From Porphyridium purpureum (taxonomy: Eukaryota > Rhodophyta > Bangiophyceae > Porphyridiales > Porphyridiaceae): a DNA stretch of 64,000 bases. The translations under genes were made by a program, and so were the position numbers. How positions within the stretch are numbered: the stretch's first letter is position 1; each line of letters begins with the position of its first letter. Shown piece after piece: positions 51,764 through 61,617 of the stretch. The stretch covers positions 186,001 through 250,000 of the forward strand of contig VRMN01000012.1 of NCBI GenBank assembly GCA_008690995.1, read 5' to 3'. The notes under the pieces are model-generated. The model did not search any database and was not told the DNA's origin. It was given only the letters and a program-made list of their open reading frames with translations.

Positions 51764-52990
51764 ATGCGCTGCGCGGGTCCCGTGAGTCGTAGCGTGCTCC
51801 AGCGCGTGCGTCGAGCCATGAACGAGCTCGGTCTTGGGGTGGATGCACATGCGCACAACGTCAAGCCACTGCGTGTGTTGGTGGCAGTGTCTGGCGGTCG
51901 CGACTCTGTGTGCGCGTTGCATGTCATGAAAACACTGCTCGCGACGATGAATGCATGCCGAGAAAAGGCAAAGCAGGCGCCGTTTGACCGGCGTGGTGAC
52001 GCGACGTTGAGCCAAGGGCCTGAAGCTGGGTTGCACGAGCTGGCTGCCATCCACTGCGACCATCGATGGCCTGGAGATGAGGGCATTGCGGAGCACGTGC
52101 AGCGAGTCACGGACGGACTTGGGATCCATTTGCACGTCATTACACAGACCGATGGTGCAGCGGAGAACGGGATAAAAAGCAGCGAGAGGACAGAAACAGG
52201 TGCAAGGGATTGGCGCTATGCGTGCATTCGTCATATCTGTGCAACTTTTAGGTACACAACTGTGATTACGGGTCACACCAAGTCAGACCGTGTGGAGACG
52301 ATGTTGCTAAACTTGGTGACTGGCTGTGGAATGACTGGCATCGCTTCGATTCCAAGGCGTCGGCCGCTTTCATCGACACAGCACACCAGTGGCGAATTTG
52401 GCCAGGCCGAGCCAGTCGATTTGGTGCGACCGCTTCTAGACATTTGGCGAGCAGAAACGGCTGCTTATTGTGTGGAAAACGAGCTCGCGTTTCATGAGGA
52501 CGCGTACAACACGGGCACCACCACGCCACGGAATCGAATACGGAACGAGCTGATTCCATACCTGCGGACGCACTTCAACCCGCAAGTCGAGCAGCATCTG
52601 GCCCACACGAGCGAGCTGATGGCGTCTGAGCGCGACTTTCTCTCGTCGCACACTCGCGACGTCTTCCAGCGTGTTTTGCTTCCGTCGTCCAGCACAGCCG
52701 ACCCGGGCGACCACGCCATCAAACTGGACGCCCGGATACTGGCAGGCCAAAGCATTGCCACGCAGCGCCGAGTGCTGCGCATGGCGCTGCTGGTGAGACG
52801 CCACGCGCCTCGGAAGAGGAGCAGCAGCAGCGGCAGCTCGTTTGCCAAAGTGGAAGCGGTCCGATACCTGCTGGACCACCCGCGCGTCAAGAACGACGCG
52901 CGGGGACGCCAATGCTCATTCCAGTTCACGCCTCCGGGCCGCGCATGGATGTCGCACGACGGCACGGTCCTCCATATCATTCCTTCATGA
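51764..52990 (+). CDS. tilS: tRNA(Ile)-lysidine synthase, organelle-targeted type
   Basis: A 408-residue TilS, which adds lysine to C34 of the CAU-anticodon tRNA-Ile so that it reads AUA. The N-terminal PP-loop ATPase has VLVAVSGGRDSVCALHVM, then HCDHRWPGDEG, RYACIRHIC, VITGHTKSDRVETMLLNLVTG (family HxxDDQxET; here H-TKSD-RVET) and a core ending PLLDIWRAET, EDAYNTGTTTPRNRIRNELIP. The family usually has DxxN.RNRIR here, which is retained in essence. The enzyme is bacterial in origin, and in eukaryotes with plastids it serves organelle translation. The ATG at 51764 precedes a basic Arg/Ser/Ala-rich stretch suited to a presequence; the frame is open to a TTG at 51704. Many red algae keep tilS in the plastid genome, so this nuclear copy hints at transfer or a mitochondrial role. 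Confidence 0.88.
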   Translation: MRCAGPVSRSVLQRVRRAMNELGLGVDAHAHNVKPLRVLVAVSGGRDSVCALHVMKTLLATMNACREKAKQAPFDRRGDATLSQGPEAGLHELAAIHCDHRWPGDEGIAEHVQRVTDGLGIHLHVITQTDGAAENGIKSSERTETGARDWRYACIRHICATFRYTTVITGHTKSDRVETMLLNLVTGCGMTGIASIPRRRPLSSTQHTSGEFGQAEPVDLVRPLLDIWRAETAAYCVENELAFHEDAYNTGTTTPRNRIRNELIPYLRTHFNPQVEQHLAHTSELMASERDFLSSHTRDVFQRVLLPSSSTADPGDHAIKLDARILAGQSIATQRRVLRMALLVRRHAPRKRSSSSGSSFAKVEAVRYLLDHPRVKNDARGRQCSFQFTPPGRAWMSHDGTVLHIIPS

Positions 52991-53226: not shown

Positions 53227-53883
53227 ATGGCGCGCGCGCCGCACGAAATTCGGGCGCTGGTGCCGTACTTTGTTCCCAAGGACGACGAGGGTGACCATGA
53301 GAACCGTGTGGGCTGTTCCAGTGGAGAGGAGGCAAAGGACGAGACGCAGCTGGTCATCAATGAGCGGTTGGACATGGATGAGACGCGATGGAAGCTGCAG
53401 TCAAGAAGGGGAGCGGGAGCGGGAGCGGACGTTGAGGATGATGAGCAGGCGGAGGATGGGGAAGAAAAGTGGGTGCGTGTCGAGGTGCGTGACTGGGATC
53501 ACGCCGAGGGCTACTTCAAGGTGCGCACGCACTTGGTAAAAGACCTGCAGGTTCCGTCGTCTTCAGCGTCAGAGACTCCGTCTTCGTCGAGAACGAGCAA
53601 AAAGAAAAACAAGGGGTCGGCTCAAAGCAAGTCCGCGGAGCGGTCGAAAGGCTCGTACGCGGGTACGTCATTTGAGTTTCAGTCGCCGGCGCCGTCTGAG
53701 CTCCCGCTTCCTACTCATTTGTGTGAGGCTGGTGGTAACAAGCAAAGGACCATGGGTTACCTGCATGGCGGCAGCGATATGAGCCCTTATGCCAATGTGG
53801 CTCCCATTCCGATTCCCGCGCCACAAAGCGTGACACAGATAAGCGAGTTGGAGCACAATGTTCGCAAGCATCTTGCGTTTTGA
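53227..53883 (+). CDS. Acidic Ser/Lys-rich unknown protein
   Basis: A 218-residue protein, unrecognised. The N-terminus (MARAPHEIRALVPYFVPKDD) is well structured and is followed by an acidic stretch (DVEDDEQAEDGEEKWVRVEV), a Ser/Lys-rich low-complexity centre and a Pro-rich patch (PIPIPAPQ). A short amphipathic helix (ISELEHNVRKHLAF) ends exactly at the C-terminus. The Pro patch plus terminal Leu helix resembles a short protein-binding module such as those found in mRNA-decay scaffolds, but this is only a resemblance. I chose ATG 53227; the frame is open upstream through the GA-rich leader. It converges on the minus-strand small ORF with 55 bp between stops. Confidence 0.65.
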   Translation: MARAPHEIRALVPYFVPKDDEGDHENRVGCSSGEEAKDETQLVINERLDMDETRWKLQSRRGAGAGADVEDDEQAEDGEEKWVRVEVRDWDHAEGYFKVRTHLVKDLQVPSSSASETPSSSRTSKKKNKGSAQSKSAERSKGSYAGTSFEFQSPAPSELPLPTHLCEAGGNKQRTMGYLHGGSDMSPYANVAPIPIPAPQSVTQISELEHNVRKHLAF

Positions 53884-53938
53884 CGATATTTAAGAACAGA
53901 ATCCTCAAACGAAACAAACGAAAACCGGTCAACTAATT

Positions 53939-54283
53939 TTAAACCAAGCCGTCTGCGCCATGCTTCGCGGCCTTTTTCAGCTTGAGCTTGTCCTTCTTCG
54001 CTGACTTCTTTGAAACACCGGTGCCGGTCGGTGCGCCGTGCTGGATCTTCATCGGTTCCTTTTTCTTTTTGTGCTTGACTGGCGCCTCCTCTCCAGCACC
54101 CTCTGCCATTTCGGCATGCAGTTCCTCGCGAAGAAGGTGCAGATTCATCTGATAGTGGCGCGCCGTGCCCGAACGGCTCTCCTCACTTTCGCCGTCCGCA
54201 ACAGCGGCGAACGCGTCCAGCGAGCGCACCACGTGCTCAAGCGAAACCGATTCTCTCTTATTCACATGAATCGTCCACTCCAT
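53939..54283 (-). CDS. Small Lys-rich protein, second cistron after uS12m
   Basis: A 114-residue protein of unknown family. The N-terminal half is helical and charged (VSLEHVVRSLDAFAAVADG, YQMNLHLLREELHAEMAEG). The C-terminal half is strongly basic (KHKKKKEPMK, KKSAKKDKLKLKKAAK), as in RNA- or ribosome-binding tails. Its ATG lies 9 nt after the TAA of the uS12m gene on the same strand, leaving no room for a separate promoter. It is therefore either translated from the same mRNA or expressed from a promoter inside the uS12m coding region. The composition is clearly protein-like, and no family was recognised. Confidence 0.6.
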   Translation of the reverse strand: MEWTIHVNKRESVSLEHVVRSLDAFAAVADGESEESRSGTARHYQMNLHLLREELHAEMAEGAGEEAPVKHKKKKEPMKIQHGAPTGTGVSKKSAKKDKLKLKKAAKHGADGLV

Positions 54284-54292
54284 CGTGACAGC

Positions 54293-54997
54293 TTATGCCG
54301 TGGGCTTCTTGGTGCCGTACTTGGACCTCTTTCTCGTTCTTCCGGCGACGCCTTGCAGATCGTACTTTCCGCGGATCAAATGATACTTGACACCGGGCAA
54401 ATCTTTGACTCGGCCACCACGAACAAGCACAGTGGAATGTTCCTGCAGGTTGTGTCCCTCACCGGGAATGTATGCCACAATCGCCTTGCCTGTGGTAAGC
54501 TGCACGCGAGCCACTTTGCGCACGGCCGAGTTGGGCTTCTTGGGAGTCGTTGTATACACACGAAGACAAACTCCGCGCTTCTGCGGGCACGCTTCCAGCG
54601 CGGGTGATTTAGTCTTTTTGCGCTTTTTCGACAACCGCTTCCCTTTCATCAACGAGCGAAACGTGTATCCTTTCCACCGTTTGGTGACAAGCTGACTCGT
54701 CGGTGAAGCACAACCGATCGCGGACACACGACCACCACACCCTTGCTCCGGAAGCGCGAGCGCCAGCCCTGCGCCACGCGTGCCTGCCGAACAATACCCG
54801 CCCTTATCCAACCCGCGAGCCGTCCACGTCCATCGACCAAACGAACTCAACGACCGGCGTTCCTGCTTGTGACGCGCGTGACCGCGCCAGCCCACGCACC
54901 CGCCGAGTCCAGCCACGGGGAAAACAGCCGAGAAGCGACCCGTAGAGCTTGTTGCGCACGCAGAGAGCACCGTGCGGACTAGACCATGCCCACGCAT
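54293..54997 (-). CDS. rps12: Nuclear-encoded organellar ribosomal protein uS12, probably mitochondrial
   Basis: The last 135 residues or so are an unmistakable uS12, the decoding-centre protein of the small ribosomal subunit: [71 protein letters not shown] and [11 protein letters not shown]. About 100 residues precede it, rich in Arg, Ser, Gly and Ala with almost no acids, fitting an organelle presequence. The bacterial-type core shows it is not the cytosolic protein. The CPQKRGVC wording and the [12 protein letters not shown] tail look more mitochondrial than plastid, but this is a judgement by eye. In most red algae rps12 is still in organelle DNA, so a nuclear copy is notable. The gene lies 167 bp downstream of the SET gene on the same strand and 9 nt before the next ORF. 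Confidence 0.9.
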
Positions 54998-55164
54998 CGC
55001 TTTCTCTGGCTGTGCGTCGCCTTCTTTTTCCTCTAGCGCCTTTGACTCGAGCGCCCCAGCGCGATAAGTCGCCGCACAACTGTTATTTACGACTTAGACA
55101 AATAACGACATTTTGATACATTACGTGCGGCGGATGCGCAAGCGCCGCGCGCGGTGGATGCGGG

Positions 55165-58100
55165 CTACAAGAGCTTGCGACATGACGGCGCACTGCATCG
55201 ACACAAGGTGACCTTGCTCGAGTCACTTTCAGCCGACAGCTTGTAGTCGTATGTCACTTCGTCGCCCGGTAGGATATCCTGCTTTGCAAAGATGCCGATG
55301 ACCTGCTTTTTGCCGTTCGGCGCCTTGGGGTCCTTGTCGAGCGTCAGAATGCGCGCATCGCAGTTGGGCTCGCACGAGTGGTTGATGAAACGCGCCTCAT
55401 TACCCTTCATGGTCGCGTCCACAACGCTCTTGTGGTCGATGCGGAACATGTAGTGCCCGATTCCGCGGTACTCGTACTGGAGCTCGCGATGGTCGGTGAG
55501 CTCGGACCGGATCAGCTCGCCTGCATATTCGATCAGAAGCTCACCGGCGTGGTACATCTCTTTGCAAAACACGCCGTAACCCTGGATTTTGGAATGCTGC
55601 ACCTCGAGCTTTTCCTTCCAGGTGCGCGACTTTTGCAAGTTGCGGTAGCGCATGCCGTCCGACAGGTAGGCACCCGCGCCAGCACTGCTCATCGCCGGAT
55701 TCAAATAGCGCTTCTTCTTCGCATACGTAAGCGCTTTGAGCTTGTTCATCATCGCACGAGGCTCGCCATAGTCATCCGAGCCGTAAAACCCGCCTGTCGC
55801 TTTGACAATATCGTATCGCAGCGAACCGGGTTCCAGGTCAGCAAGCTCCTCCACGCGCAGCTTCATGGGTGCGGCAAATTTGACATTCGTTTGCGCGCGA
55901 CTGCGGTGTGAGTACTTATCGTCCACCGGTCCGGCACGCGCCGCGGCGTATGGATTGTAATTCACATAACTGCCATGCACGCGCTTCAGCTCTGTCTCAT
56001 CAAAGCAGACATACTCATACCCGGAAAACACACGAGAGCTCGGCATCCATTCGAGACACGTCCGCACCCAAGCCGTGTCCAACCCGAAAAACGAGTATCC
56101 CGCTGATCCGTACCCCAGAATTGTCAAGCGCTCAGTAGGCTCCTGTGATCGGACAGGGATATCCGGTACTCCCGAAACATTGGAAGCGCCACCGTTTGTT
56201 CGGAAGCGCTCGCGGACCCGGGAGCGCGGCGGAGGAGACGCATCGCTTCCAGTATTGTTCTCAAGTTTTTGTGAATTCCGATGCAAGCTTGCGCTTTTCT
56301 GGATATTTGTCGCAGACGCTCCGGTCCGGTCATCCGTTGATACATACATTGAGGCGACTCGCAATTGTTCGGTCTGTCTCGTGCACGCCGCACTCGCTTT
56401 CTGAGCAACTTTCAGTGGCCGTGCGTGCCGCATTACGTCAAGCTCGTGCTTAAACGCGTCCCAGGCCTCTTCTGCGGTTGGCTTCTCGATCTGCCACTCC
56501 GCGTGTCCACTGATGCAAGTCAGCTGGAAAATCGGTCCGTCCAGTACGCGCATCAAGTACGTCACACGGTGCCCAACTTGCCACAGACTCCAGTGCCGCC
56601 GCGCAGCGATATATCCGGTTGGTACAAGCACTACAGGCGGCTGGTTGTCCTGCGAGACAGTCTCTTTTCGCCAGAGGTCTCTCAGAGCCTCGTGCGTGAC
56701 GTGCGACAAATGCCCACACTCCAGCACACCAAGTGCGCCAATGCGGCCATGAAAGGGTACCTTAATCTCCTCCACGCGAAGCGTGTCATTGTGGTTGGAC
56801 GGCAGCATTCCCTTGACGCTCGATATCAACAGCGGATTCGTGACATCTTTTCTTTCCCTGTTCGATAGCGACACGGAGGCAGCCGCCGAGGCAGAAGTCA
56901 CCACAATACACCGTTGAGCATCACCAAGGCAAACGTCATCCAGTAGATTCTGAACCTGCTTTTCGCTTCGCTCGTGCGGCGGTAGGCAACACATGAAGAC
57001 CACTCCGGAGCGCCCGTTGCTGCCGGAGCCTTCTGCCTTAAAAAAGTTACCACCTTCGACCGCGAGAGCACATGGAAAATGATATATTGCCTTGCACTTG
57101 TCCATGGCACAAATGACAGACGCGCCCATGCCTCTCTTCGGAGACGAAGGACAATTCGCGTCGTTCCGACTGATTGAGCGCGGGCATGCGGGTAGACTAC
57201 ACTTTGTACGAGATGCCTGGTCAATAACCGCATCCATTCTGTAAATGTCACCTGTCCGCATCACCAGCGCTCCGTCGCTCCACACTGCACAATTCATGTG
57301 CACCCATGTCGGATTTGTCGCACCCGTCGACTTGCTCCGATCACTGCCCAAGCCCGCTGGCAGCAATCGACCCAGGCGGTCTTCATGGTCGCCGCCTCCG
57401 CACAGAGCACATTCCCGAGTATCCGGAAAGAGCTCTTCACACTCTTCTTCTCCTTCTTCTTGTTCCTTTTCCTCTACCTCCCCGTCCTTGCCATGCACCG
57501 CTGGGAGGGCCAGCATCGATTGTGAATCAGCAAAAGGCACATCAGATTCTGCACGCTCATCATCTGTTCCAAGCCCTTCAATTTTGGCGTCCACAAAGCT
57601 TTGATCATCTTCGTCAATGACTTGGATCAAACGGTTCGCCAGTGACTTTGAGCGCGCACGCCGAGAAGATCGAGACGGTGACGTTAGTGGAGGCGCCTGG
57701 TGCGAACGTACAATGTCGTCCTCTTCCGCAGCCTTAACGACGGAGGCCTCCAGAGCGACCTCTTCCTCCATGGACGCCGCATACACGCCGTCTTGGCCCA
57801 GCAAAATGCATGCGTCGCAAAGTCGCATTCCAGCAGAACTTGCGTTCGCGTTTGCGAAACCACATCCATTCCCACTGTCCGACATTGGTGACGACGCCAC
57901 AACTGTCGCACTGGCAGCGCTCGTATAGCCGATACCCTTCATGATCCGGGCTGACTTTCTGCAACATGCAATGTGATACCACCGTCTGCAAGACTGGCAA
58001 CAGAACGCTGGCTTGGCATTGCCTGGATGGGGCGAGCTCGCCCCACCATTTCCGCCTTCCATGCTTGCGGCTGCCCCAGAGCCATTTGTCTGAGCTTCGC

Positions 58101-61100
58101 ATATCGATAGGCATCCAAAGCAAGATCCGCATGTGCGGCAGTCACGGCACTGCCATGGCAAGTACTGATTCCCGACTAGCCCGGCGCGAGAACGGTACAC
58201 CGCCGCCCATGTGCGCGGAATAATCACATCACCTCCTGCGGAAGCATCCGCTCGAAAGTCACCTCCTTCTTCCTCGGCCAAACAAGACAAATGATACACT
58301 TCGGCGCATTCGGAGCACGCAGCAGACACCTCTGGCAAACACGATGAGCCGCAGTCGCGGCACAAATCCGTGCGCATTGCCATCTGTTGCAGTAGCGTGA
58401 AGAGGCTTTCACGCATTTCTACATCACCTGTGTCTTCTAAGGATTTGTGACTTTTGGCGCCTCGATCGGATTCCGTCAGGTCTGTGAGCTGACGATCTGA
58501 GGGCAGCGCCCTCCATTTCTTTCGCCGCTTACCAGACAGCTCCCTGCACAGTGTGAAACTCGCATTCCTAAGCCACGTGAACTCAAATCCTATGTGATGG
58601 TTCAGCTCCAGCGGTCGCTGGCGTTCGACATCACGCCCGGCAAGCATGGCGAGTGAAAGAGAAATCTTCTTTCGCGGCCTAATTTGTAGCCCGAGCGCAT
58701 CATCATATACCAATTGCAAGCATGAACCGTCTGCATTACTTGTCGCGCTACGATTGCGACATCTACCGCAAGCCCACTGCAGCTTTTTCATAGACTTTGT
58801 GATTTTCTGAAACCCGTCTTCAGAAAGCCCCGAGCAGGCTTGATGCACCCACTTGTTGCACTCATCGCAGTGAACGAAGCCTTCGCCATCATCATTATTC
58901 CATAACAAGTTGCACACCGGGCACCACTCACCCTTCACTGCATACCGAACAGCGCATTCAAAACAGCTTGTAAACGCGTCCATCATGATCAGCGCATCGT
59001 TAAATCCTCCCGCGCCGCAGTGCCGGCAAATCGCACACGCAGGGCATTTAAAGTCGTCTTTGAAGTGTTCTCTGGCGGCGTCCAGGTCACCCAGCTCATA
59101 CACATCCACCAACGTGGCAAACTCCTTGTGCGCATGCACTGCTTCTATCATGGCGTCAAACTCAAGCTCCACGCAGGCCGGATGCGCCCGCCTGGTACAC
59201 GCACATGAGCGCTTCGCATCACAACTCGAGACCCCGGCCTGTTCTGCCTTGATTTGTCCTTGTCTCGTCAAAGTCGGTCCCAAAGTCTTTCCTTGACACT
59301 GAATCAATTCGCGGCTTGCACCCGCAGAATGTTCGTCTTCACGAGCTGCGCGATCCACATCATGAGCTTCCTGCACGTGAAGCGGGCTTCTGGAGGATGA
59401 TGCAAGTACAATTTCGTAGTCAAAGTCGCTCGTGGCGAGCGATGGAGACTCGGGATGCGATGTGGGCTGTTCTCTCGGTTCAGAGGACGTACAACAGATG
59501 GCGCAATCTGCGCATGTGTCGCACTGCCACCCATACAGAGAAGCGGGGTATGCGCGAGTGAGCGCATCCATGGTTATCATGGTGCGCGCAAAGACGCGTG
59601 ATTTCGCTGCGCATGCGAGATGGTAAGGTGCCGCACACTTTGAACATACCAGTGGCACGCGGTCCAACAAAGCACGTTCATAGAAGTCAAATTCCGTTTC
59701 ATCGCTATCAAGAAGCTCACCATCGTCTGCGTCCTTTTGGTATCGTTGCAGCTCCATGTACGGATCAAAAAAAGCGCCGCCACAACCTCGTCCAGCGCAG
59801 GTGTCGGCCGTCAGAAGTGGAGAGAGCAATGAGACTTGCGCAGACGAAAGCCGCTGGAATTGTTCTTTCCGTCGTCCGCTCCGTATTACCAAGCTGCTGG
59901 TTTGTGTTAGCGCTACCTTTGACCAGCACACGCGGTGCTCTGGACATAAGAACGTCATCTTTTCGTCGATCCTGGCGGGTAAATACACGCCAGCCTTTGC
60001 TGCCAGCCTTGCAACTCTTCCGTCACTTAAACCAACAAAGCCAGCGGCGATGGCGCACGGTGCGTGCATTCGAACAGTGCAGTCACGGCAGTCGCAGGAC
60101 ACGCCGGCACCAGGTAGACCGCAGAATGAGCACGCGTTGCCACTTGCTAGAGCCTGGATCCGACAAATACTTGTCATGCTGGACAAATTTCCGCAGCACC
60201 CACTCATTACGGCACAAATGACATGCACGTAGAACGTGTGTACAATGGCAGTGCCACGTAAGGCGTCCTCCTCGTCGTAGCCGAACGGGCCGGTCGGACG
60301 CAACTCATTCCACAGAGACACGCGGTGGCAGAGCACACAAGCTGGCGCTGATTTTGGCCTCGCTGTGCTCGCGGCGGCGTTTGAGCTGTTTCCGATGCCC
60401 TTGGACGACTTTTGTGTACTACTCACGTGGTTGGCATTCTCCAGCGGGATCATATCAAAGCTCCCGTCTGCCGACGAACTCGACCCGACACGATCGCTAG
60501 TCTGCGACAGCCGTTTCTCGAGCCCATTTGCTCTCACTTCATCATTTGGAGAGTTTAATTCCAGTAGCTCGACATGATTTGAACCAGAACTGATGCGCTC
60601 AGCGAAAAGGACGCCAATTTCCTTGCGCGTGCCGCCGTCGTCCGAGCCGACCCGTGTGGCTATCAACGGCTTATCCAAGGCAGGTAGCGCCGATTCCCAA
60701 AGCAGCGCGCGCGCATTTTGCAGCACCCGTGTAAAGTATCTTTCGTGTCCGTCTGTAAGACAAGAGCACGACTTACGATGCTCTTGCCGTCCTGCCTCTG
60801 CTTTGAGGGCAGTTGCCTGAGAAAATTGCGACTGCGCCACGCCAGCATTCGCTAGCCTCTTCTTCCTCATTTCCATGATTTCAGAGAACATCACAAGGAC
60901 TGGCAGTGCCTCGACTCGGCACACGACGTCTACGCGAGTCGCACTGTCTTGACGTGCACCTGGCGCCAAAACCTCATCATCGCGCGCCGCATACACAGGC
61001 GTGCCTGCATTAGGTGAGTCTGTGCGCTTCTTTTTGGAACCTCTCGAATCCTCGTTGCCACTTGAGCTAACCTGCTCAAGCCCTACTGCGACCAGATCCT

Positions 61101-61617
61101 CGTGCAGACCGGGCAGCCCGCTCGCCGCATCACTGCGTTGCCCATCCTCCTGTACCTGAACCTGCACCACGAGCACGTTCTCGCGGCGCAGCCAATCCCG
61201 CATCTTCAGCCAGCAGCGCTCATCCACGCACCCCGGCGGCGGAGCACGCAACACCGCACACCGCTCACCCTGTCGCACCTGCATACTCACCAACCACCCG
61301 GTCCCCACCTGCTCCGCATGCCACGGCGGCAACGGCAACGGCAGCGCCGTCGGCGCCGTCTCATCGGTGTGCGCAGCAAGCTTCCGCTTCCCAGACACCA
61401 ACATCCTCAGTCGCATGAAACCGCGCGCGTGCGCGGCGGCTGTTGCGGGGCCTTCCGGCACGTGCGCAGCCACGCTCTCACACCCCACACCCGCCTCACG
61501 ACCGCGCCAGATCCCTCCTCTCTCCCTCCTCTCTCCCTCTCTTTCTTCTCCCCCCCCACGCGCACACGCCAAAAACCAAAAAACGTTTAATGGAGAAACC
61601 CTAATCGATAAGTTCAT
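55165..61617 (-). CDS. Trithorax/MLL-type SET protein (H3K4 methyltransferase-like)
   Basis: A 2,150-residue protein with the order of trithorax/MLL/ATX enzymes. After a basic N-terminus come an extended PHD region (about residue 427, CVLCHR...CSFCGLPGAGVSC), several PHD fingers (about 606-700, 898-925 WCPVCNLLWNNDD, 1086-1110, 1207), an extended PHD near 1400 (ECALCGGGDHEDRL to CKAIYHFPCAL), FYRN/FYRC (about 1620-1730, IGALGVLECGHLS, LVPTGYIAARRHWS, AEEAWDAFKHELD), and the SET domain (about 2006-2130, SKIQGYGVFCKEMYHAGELL, RFINHSCEPNCDARI, DEVTYDYKL). It finishes with post-SET cysteines CRCSAPSC four residues from the end. All motifs for S-adenosylmethionine and Lys binding look intact. The ATG at 61416 (MRLRMLVSGK) may be the true start, because the codons before it read through a GA-rich leader. 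Nuclear. Confidence 0.92.
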   Translation of the reverse strand: MNLSIRVSPLNVFWFLACARGGGEEREGERRERGGIWRGREAGVGCESVAAHVPEGPATAAAHARGFMRLRMLVSGKRKLAAHTDETAPTALPLPLPPWHAEQVGTGWLVSMQVRQGERCAVLRAPPPGCVDERCWLKMRDWLRRENVLVVQVQVQEDGQRSDAASGLPGLHEDLVAVGLEQVSSSGNEDSRGSKKKRTDSPNAGTPVYAARDDEVLAPGARQDSATRVDVVCRVEALPVLVMFSEIMEMRKKRLANAGVAQSQFSQATALKAEAGRQEHRKSCSCLTDGHERYFTRVLQNARALLWESALPALDKPLIATRVGSDDGGTRKEIGVLFAERISSGSNHVELLELNSPNDEVRANGLEKRLSQTSDRVGSSSSADGSFDMIPLENANHVSSTQKSSKGIGNSSNAAASTARPKSAPACVLCHRVSLWNELRPTGPFGYDEEDALRGTAIVHTFYVHVICAVMSGCCGNLSSMTSICRIQALASGNACSFCGLPGAGVSCDCRDCTVRMHAPCAIAAGFVGLSDGRVARLAAKAGVYLPARIDEKMTFLCPEHRVCWSKVALTQTSSLVIRSGRRKEQFQRLSSAQVSLLSPLLTADTCAGRGCGGAFFDPYMELQRYQKDADDGELLDSDETEFDFYERALLDRVPLVCSKCAAPYHLACAAKSRVFARTMITMDALTRAYPASLYGWQCDTCADCAICCTSSEPREQPTSHPESPSLATSDFDYEIVLASSSRSPLHVQEAHDVDRAAREDEHSAGASRELIQCQGKTLGPTLTRQGQIKAEQAGVSSCDAKRSCACTRRAHPACVELEFDAMIEAVHAHKEFATLVDVYELGDLDAAREHFKDDFKCPACAICRHCGAGGFNDALIMMDAFTSCFECAVRYAVKGEWCPVCNLLWNNDDGEGFVHCDECNKWVHQACSGLSEDGFQKITKSMKKLQWACGRCRNRSATSNADGSCLQLVYDDALGLQIRPRKKISLSLAMLAGRDVERQRPLELNHHIGFEFTWLRNASFTLCRELSGKRRKKWRALPSDRQLTDLTESDRGAKSHKSLEDTGDVEMRESLFTLLQQMAMRTDLCRDCGSSCLPEVSAACSECAEVYHLSCLAEEEGGDFRADASAGGDVIIPRTWAAVYRSRAGLVGNQYLPWQCRDCRTCGSCFGCLSICEAQTNGSGAAASMEGGNGGASSPHPGNAKPAFCCQSCRRWYHIACCRKSARIMKGIGYTSAASATVVASSPMSDSGNGCGFANANASSAGMRLCDACILLGQDGVYAASMEEEVALEASVVKAAEEDDIVRSHQAPPLTSPSRSSRRARSKSLANRLIQVIDEDDQSFVDAKIEGLGTDDERAESDVPFADSQSMLALPAVHGKDGEVEEKEQEEGEEECEELFPDTRECALCGGGDHEDRLGRLLPAGLGSDRSKSTGATNPTWVHMNCAVWSDGALVMRTGDIYRMDAVIDQASRTKCSLPACPRSISRNDANCPSSPKRGMGASVICAMDKCKAIYHFPCALAVEGGNFFKAEGSGSNGRSGVVFMCCLPPHERSEKQVQNLLDDVCLGDAQRCIVVTSASAAASVSLSNRERKDVTNPLLISSVKGMLPSNHNDTLRVEEIKVPFHGRIGALGVLECGHLSHVTHEALRDLWRKETVSQDNQPPVVLVPTGYIAARRHWSLWQVGHRVTYLMRVLDGPIFQLTCISGHAEWQIEKPTAEEAWDAFKHELDVMRHARPLKVAQKASAACTRQTEQLRVASMYVSTDDRTGASATNIQKSASLHRNSQKLENNTGSDASPPPRSRVRERFRTNGGASNVSGVPDIPVRSQEPTERLTILGYGSAGYSFFGLDTAWVRTCLEWMPSSRVFSGYEYVCFDETELKRVHGSYVNYNPYAAARAGPVDDKYSHRSRAQTNVKFAAPMKLRVEELADLEPGSLRYDIVKATGGFYGSDDYGEPRAMMNKLKALTYAKKKRYLNPAMSSAGAGAYLSDGMRYRNLQKSRTWKEKLEVQHSKIQGYGVFCKEMYHAGELLIEYAGELIRSELTDHRELQYEYRGIGHYMFRIDHKSVVDATMKGNEARFINHSCEPNCDARILTLDKDPKAPNGKKQVIGIFAKQDILPGDEVTYDYKLSAESDSSKVTLCRCSAPSCRKLL

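Follow-up and report, generated by a model that had tools for sequence, protein, structure and literature searches.

Nuclear bicistronic genes have been described in the green algae Chlamydomonas reinhardtii and Auxenochlorella protothecoides, where, according to the available part of the report, they are translated by leaky scanning (PMC11892635). In these genes the first open reading frame (ORF1) has a weak start and the second (ORF2) a strong one, few ATGs precede ORF2, the inter-ORF spacers have medians of 183 and 40 nt, one for each alga, and ORF1 tends to be much shorter than ORF2 (PMC11892635, same part of the text). Among red algae, about 14.5% of the genes of Cyanidium are reported as polycistronically expressed on the basis of Iso-Seq, as stated in the accessible part of that study (PMC9812998). 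For Porphyridium, no report of nuclear bicistronic genes was found among the matches listed for the open-licence literature, taken without supplements.

Here we analyse a locus of the red alga Porphyridium purpureum at which the gene for a ribosomal protein, uS12, is followed by a second ORF. The window, i.e. the whole stretch of 64,000 nucleotides that was analysed, corresponds to positions 186001–250000 of contig C20 in a genome of 22.16 Mb and 46 contigs; coordinates of the locus refer to the window. A 9-nt gap between the TAA of uS12 (54293–54295) and the ATG of ORF2 (54281–54283) had been pointed out in an initial annotation, and both its coordinates and its sequence were confirmed. The features of the locus, all on the minus strand, are:

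54998–55164, minus strand: gap of 167 nt between the stop of the SET/PHD gene and the start of uS12
54995–54997, minus strand: start codon of uS12, local context weak to average
54293–54997, minus strand: uS12 (ORF1), 234 codons, 705 nt, ending with the TAA at 54293–54295
54284–54292, minus strand: inter-ORF spacer, 9 nt, read directly as GCTGTCACG
54281–54283, minus strand: start codon of ORF2, local context very strong
53939–54283, minus strand: ORF2, 114 codons, 345 nt, in the same frame as uS12, encoding a protein of unknown family

Like the green algal bicistrons, as far as the available text on these goes (PMC11892635), the uS12–ORF2 pair combines a very short spacer (9 nt), an ORF1 start that is weaker than the strong ORF2 start and a small number of ATGs before ORF2. 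Unlike in those genes, ORF1 is the longer of the two (705 versus 345 nt), the scarcity of ATGs in uS12 follows from the composition of the protein, and the pair belongs to a red alga and is known from sequence alone. With the polycistrons of Cyanidium, to judge from the part of the study at hand (PMC9812998), it shares the setting of nuclear genes of a red alga that point in the same direction, with a common transcript being predicted here; whereas the Cyanidium data come from Iso-Seq of an extremophilic member of the Cyanidiophyceae, our case is a sequence-based prediction in the mesophilic Porphyridium. uS12–ORF2 thus probably represents a bicistronic gene of an already known type. Such genes had initially been characterized as rare but known in some algae; known they are, but with about 14.5% of Cyanidium genes (PMC9812998, in the part available) they are not so rare.

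The two reading frames and their surroundings

ORF1 matches the Pfam family Ribosom_S12_S23 (4e-39) and the NCBIfam model rpsL_bact (2.1e-57; 192.4 bits against a cut-off of 112.95), the latter over profile positions 3–123 of 124, and aligns with uS12 chains in the PDB. Because the match reaches the end of the family model, the TAA at 54293–54295 is taken as the true end of uS12. Searching the genome with the uS12 domain produced two additional matches, one on contig C1 with 40% identity, probably the cytosolic relative, and a weak one with internal stops on contig C8, so that ORF1 is the only clear organellar-type uS12 copy found. To judge from these similarities, ORF1 is a nuclear uS12 gene of organellar/bacterial type, probably with a mitochondrial product. 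Nuclear rps12 does occur in red algae, and ORF1, with its N-terminal extension, is probably such a nuclear-encoded mitochondrial gene (PMC10250338, as far as its available text goes); in the main text of that paper the word ‘polycistronic’ is absent, and no mention of a second ORF was found in the available text. In the accessible part of another source, consulted with respect to loss of mitochondrial rps12 in Porphyridium, no mention of rps12 was found (PMC8742464). The N-terminal extension of our uS12 comprises about 100 amino acids, with one acidic and nine Lys/Arg residues among the first 60. Across residues 1–100 its synonymous codon usage was reached in none of 2000 simulations, with a plain codon score that is slightly negative (−0.038). 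A later start at Met117 (54649) was set aside: several PDB alignments begin at residues 110–117, and the stretch just upstream of Met117 resembles the N-terminal uS12 motif, which was counted against this start.

ORF2 had initially been described as protein-like, and the codon statistics bear this out. A codon model built on 51 long ORFs gives ORF2 a score of 0.291 per codon, which exceeds the 95th percentile of that training set (0.245) and places it fourth among 272 ORFs of 90–140 amino acids; the five other frames across its span all score negative. Its synonymous codon usage was matched by none of 2000 simulations and, compared with the 101 called ORFs, lies at the 94th percentile, and shadow ORFs, i.e. 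those inside long ORFs, rarely score as high (1 of 156 by codon score and 3 of 156 by synonymous usage). ORF2 is thus very probably a genuine protein-coding gene, with no family assigned to it. On the opposite strand, an ORF of 163 amino acids (54116–54607, plus strand) was rejected as a true gene with a score of −0.044 per codon.

In the collections searched, ORF2 had no family match above cut-off in Pfam or NCBIfam, a single Lys-rich match among PDB sequences (E = 0.55), no match but itself in its own genome and no usable relative among viral contigs and prokaryote genomes; these last collections, consisting of viruses and prokaryotes, could hardly contain one. The predicted structure is a beta hairpin with two helices, followed by a Lys-rich tail without predicted structure; such a tail would be in keeping with an RNA-binding or nucleolar protein. 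Foldseek on the PDB returned ten matches with E between 3.4 and 9.5; as the model is a single-sequence one of low confidence (mean pLDDT 65.5), missing fold matches say little. The initial suggestion that the locus links two mitoribosomal proteins finds no support. There is no family match; the N-terminus is unlike a mitochondrial presequence (eight acidic residues and four Lys/Arg among the first 40); and, with E = 3.9 and 7.2, the two Foldseek matches to assembly intermediates of the trypanosome mitoribosome are at chance level. Use1, a weak Pfam lead on ORF2 with 13.1 bits against a cut-off of 38.3, was rejected (a Use1 match above cut-off, with 48.3 bits, sits on another contig). A further lead, Gon7, found no support: with an E limit of 1 its model PF08738 gave no hit in this genome, but it gave none in the control genomes either.

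Upstream on the minus strand, an uninterrupted ORF of 2150 amino acids (55165–61617), with its stop 167 nt before uS12, encodes a SET protein that also has PHD fingers, as well as FYRN/FYRC matches that stay below cut-off, and that resembles the trithorax/MLL histone methyltransferases. The 167-nt gap presumably accommodates both the 3′ end of this gene and the promoter of the uS12–ORF2 pair; neither TATAAA nor AATAAA was found in it. Downstream and convergent with ORF2, a 218-amino acid ORF on the plus strand (53227–53883) has a strong coding score and a PNRC motif with 21.6 bits (cut-off 21), and 55 nt separate the two stops. Further on, a plus-strand ORF of 408 amino acids (51764–52990) encodes a PP-loop ATPase (Pfam ATP_bind_3, 3.7e-31), which looks like TilS, the tRNA-Ile lysidine synthetase; being nuclear in an alga, it may have moved from the plastid. 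At gathering scores, Rfam had no match within the window.

Close spacing in the sampled sequence

ORF and gap statistics were obtained from 310 kb of the contig, i.e. 1.4% of the genome, with 55% GC and called ORFs covering about 56% of the sequence. The genome is described as LTR-rich in the available part of the genome report (PMC6811547), and Ty3-type and probably also Ty1-type retroelements are present in the sampled sequence. For 8 of the 101 called ORFs, a frame of 100 codons or more begins at an ATG located −20 to +50 nt from the stop; with so many alike, the uS12–ORF2 geometry is not rare and by itself is weak evidence. The seven other downstream ORFs, however, have coding scores of only −0.104 to 0.145 and consist of three retroelement fragments, three ORFs with negative scores and a weak one without assignment (0.083, no Pfam match), so that uS12–ORF2 alone joins this geometry to a high score.

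A gap of at most 50 nt separates 6 of the 58 same-strand neighbour pairs in the 310 kb, against a median of 858 nt for all 100 adjacent pairs in both orientations. Besides uS12–ORF2, these are three pairs in retroelements, one without assignment and one with a poly-lysine ORF. uS12–ORF2 is the sole pair in the 310-kb sample that lies this close with both partners being host-gene-like; the next smallest same-strand gap for which two host genes are conceivable measures 136 nt and involves an uncertain partner of 91 amino acids. uS12 itself, at 5.7, fell short of the calling threshold of 12 and was included manually under an assigned score; since the caller misses small genes with low scores, uS12 included, the count of such close pairs is a lower bound.

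Within the Ty3-like pieces at 74725–78263 of contig C20, ORFs for a protease-like protein and a reverse transcriptase overlap by 4 nt and the parts of an integrase are 12 nt apart. A pair at 289–291 kb is called a retroelement from one ORF, with an RVT_2 match (2.4e-07) just under the cut-off, while the other ORF had no match in the part that was scanned. Near the contig start (L002:5547–6685), two same-strand ORFs without Pfam matches lie 47 nt apart.

One transcript or two, and how ORF2 may be reached

The next question is whether the two ORFs share an mRNA and, if so, how ribosomes would arrive at the second. Start contexts were expressed as percentiles averaged over 500 held-out splits of 87 called starts. 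The uS12 start lies at the 30th percentile of held-out called starts (s.d. 0.13) and the 58th of 3158 internal ATGs; the ORF2 start lies at the 96th and 99.8th, respectively, and among random ordered start pairs 5% differ as much as these two. In a smaller set of 73 starts the values were the 22nd percentile for uS12 and the 97th for ORF2. Between them lie only three ATGs, at 54987, 54833 and 54649, with contexts at the 48th, 34th and 13th percentile of starts; the one at 54987, which is out of frame and in an average context, was counted against leaky scanning, as were the no more than moderate weakness of the uS12 start and the length of ORF1, twice that of ORF2 and so contrary to the green algal trend. 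The uS12 ORF has 4 ATGs where 8.7 are expected from its GC content, a ratio (0.46) lower than in all 82 called ORFs, and among 168 coding blocks of that length (705 nt) only 2 contain as few. This depletion was rejected as a sign of selection, since it is explained by amino-acid composition: with the protein held fixed and synonymous codons shuffled, 3 internal ATGs stand against 4.7 expected (P = 0.23). ATG scarcity thus follows from the protein sequence, and the layout permits leaky scanning without showing selection for it.

On balance, we lean towards a single nuclear bicistronic mRNA for uS12 and ORF2 that would be translated mainly by leaky scanning. While the arrangement of the ORFs, the coding character of ORF2, the two start contexts and the few intervening ATGs are observed directly, the shared mRNA and leaky scanning are what we infer from them. 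Both ORFs would be driven from a promoter located between the SET gene and uS12, so that the 5′ UTR would not exceed 167 nt, except if transcription begins inside the SET gene, and there would be a single 3′ end downstream of ORF2. Most ribosomes would begin at the uS12 ATG, and a fraction may bypass both this ATG and the three internal ATGs, with their average or weak contexts, and begin at the ORF2 ATG to yield what we presume to be a stable protein; reinitiation after termination, across the 9-nt spacer, may contribute to ORF2 output. T-rich sequence occupies the 100 nt that follow ORF2 (99th percentile) but not those that follow uS12 (53rd percentile), as would fit a transcript whose only 3′ end lies past ORF2; yet this clue is weak, because the stop of the SET gene, which needs a 3′ end of its own, also lacks T-rich sequence (57th percentile). 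The two-gene transcript proposed in the initial annotation therefore stands as the best reading of a locus whose ORF2 looks coding, and its status is that of a prediction.

That annotation had also argued that the spacing leaves no room for a poly(A) site and a promoter, which is too strong, as a promoter could lie within uS12 and a poly(A) site within ORF2. Accordingly, ORF2 could have a capped mRNA of its own, made from a promoter inside uS12, such that the transcripts overlap and each is translated from its first ATG. We regard this as unlikely, though a serious contender: the 363 nt from 54646 to the ORF2 ATG are free of ATGs and would make a clean leader, the context of the ORF2 start is as strong as one would expect of an ordinary first ATG, and two k-mers enriched upstream of starts in this contig occur inside uS12 (CGTGCG at 54960 and 54524; TGCGTG at 54996, 54962 and 54898). 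With only 55 nt between the stops of ORF2 and its convergent neighbour, moreover, overlapping transcripts may be tolerated here. Against an own promoter, sequence in this region is fixed by conserved uS12 coding, and TATAAA as well as CTGCGC and GCTGCG, two other upstream-enriched k-mers, are absent from 53789–55260. Presence or absence of k-mers at the junction means little either way, however, because no sharply placed poly(A) or promoter motif was found in about 100 called ORFs (including 88 starts for promoters). A spliced leader that skips uS12 is possible; the donor motifs GTAAGT, GTGAGT and GTATGT are absent from the minus strand of 53789–55260. That ORF2 yields no protein and is simply a frame left open by chance in the uS12 3′ UTR seems improbable. 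Such geometry does arise by chance, as the eight cases among called ORFs illustrate, and the lack of relatives comes from collections containing few or no algal sequences; but coding score and synonymous usage exceed those of nearly all shadow ORFs, and the four other non-retroelement cases score negative (three) or weak (0.083).

If a shared mRNA exists, ORF2 might also be reached by routes other than leaky scanning. Termination–reinitiation across the spacer would be helped by its mere 9 nt and by the strong ORF2 start, but as the main route it is decidedly improbable. A long ORF1 usually prevents reinitiation, which was counted against it for the 705-nt uS12, and TGGGA, the motif of calicivirus-type termination–reinitiation, is absent from uS12 and from the gap upstream of uS12; the only copy on the minus strand of 53789–55260, at 53806, lies downstream of ORF2. 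In green algae, the mutants, as described in the available part of that work, favour leaky scanning (PMC11892635). Readthrough of the TAA into a uS12–ORF2 fusion finds some encouragement in the frame, since ORF2 is in that of uS12 with three sense codons and no further stop between them; such agreement arises by chance in one case out of three. The TAA, however, stands at the conserved end of uS12, ORF2 has a strong start of its own, and RNA structure at the junction does not go beyond that of shuffled sequences (z = 0.01). A TAA followed by G is not known as a readthrough context, which was also counted against this route. Readthrough therefore appears highly improbable.

Implications for red algal gene organization

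The bicistronic arrangement itself is no longer a surprise to specialists. If our reading of leaky scanning from a shared mRNA is true, however, the locus would provide a concrete and easily tested nuclear bicistron in a mesophilic red alga. It would bear on whether polycistrony is common across the red and green algae or arises with genome reduction. For annotation it carries a warning, as pipelines that expect one ORF per transcript would lose ORF2. As a tentative generalization, which we put forward with clear reservation, a mesophilic red alga, Porphyridium, might use leaky-scanned bicistronic nuclear mRNAs with a conserved mitoribosomal first cistron and a lineage-specific second one, a mechanism that red and green algae would then have in common. 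Should the single case in 310 kb, i.e. in 1.4% of the genome, be representative, this alga could have tens of these units.
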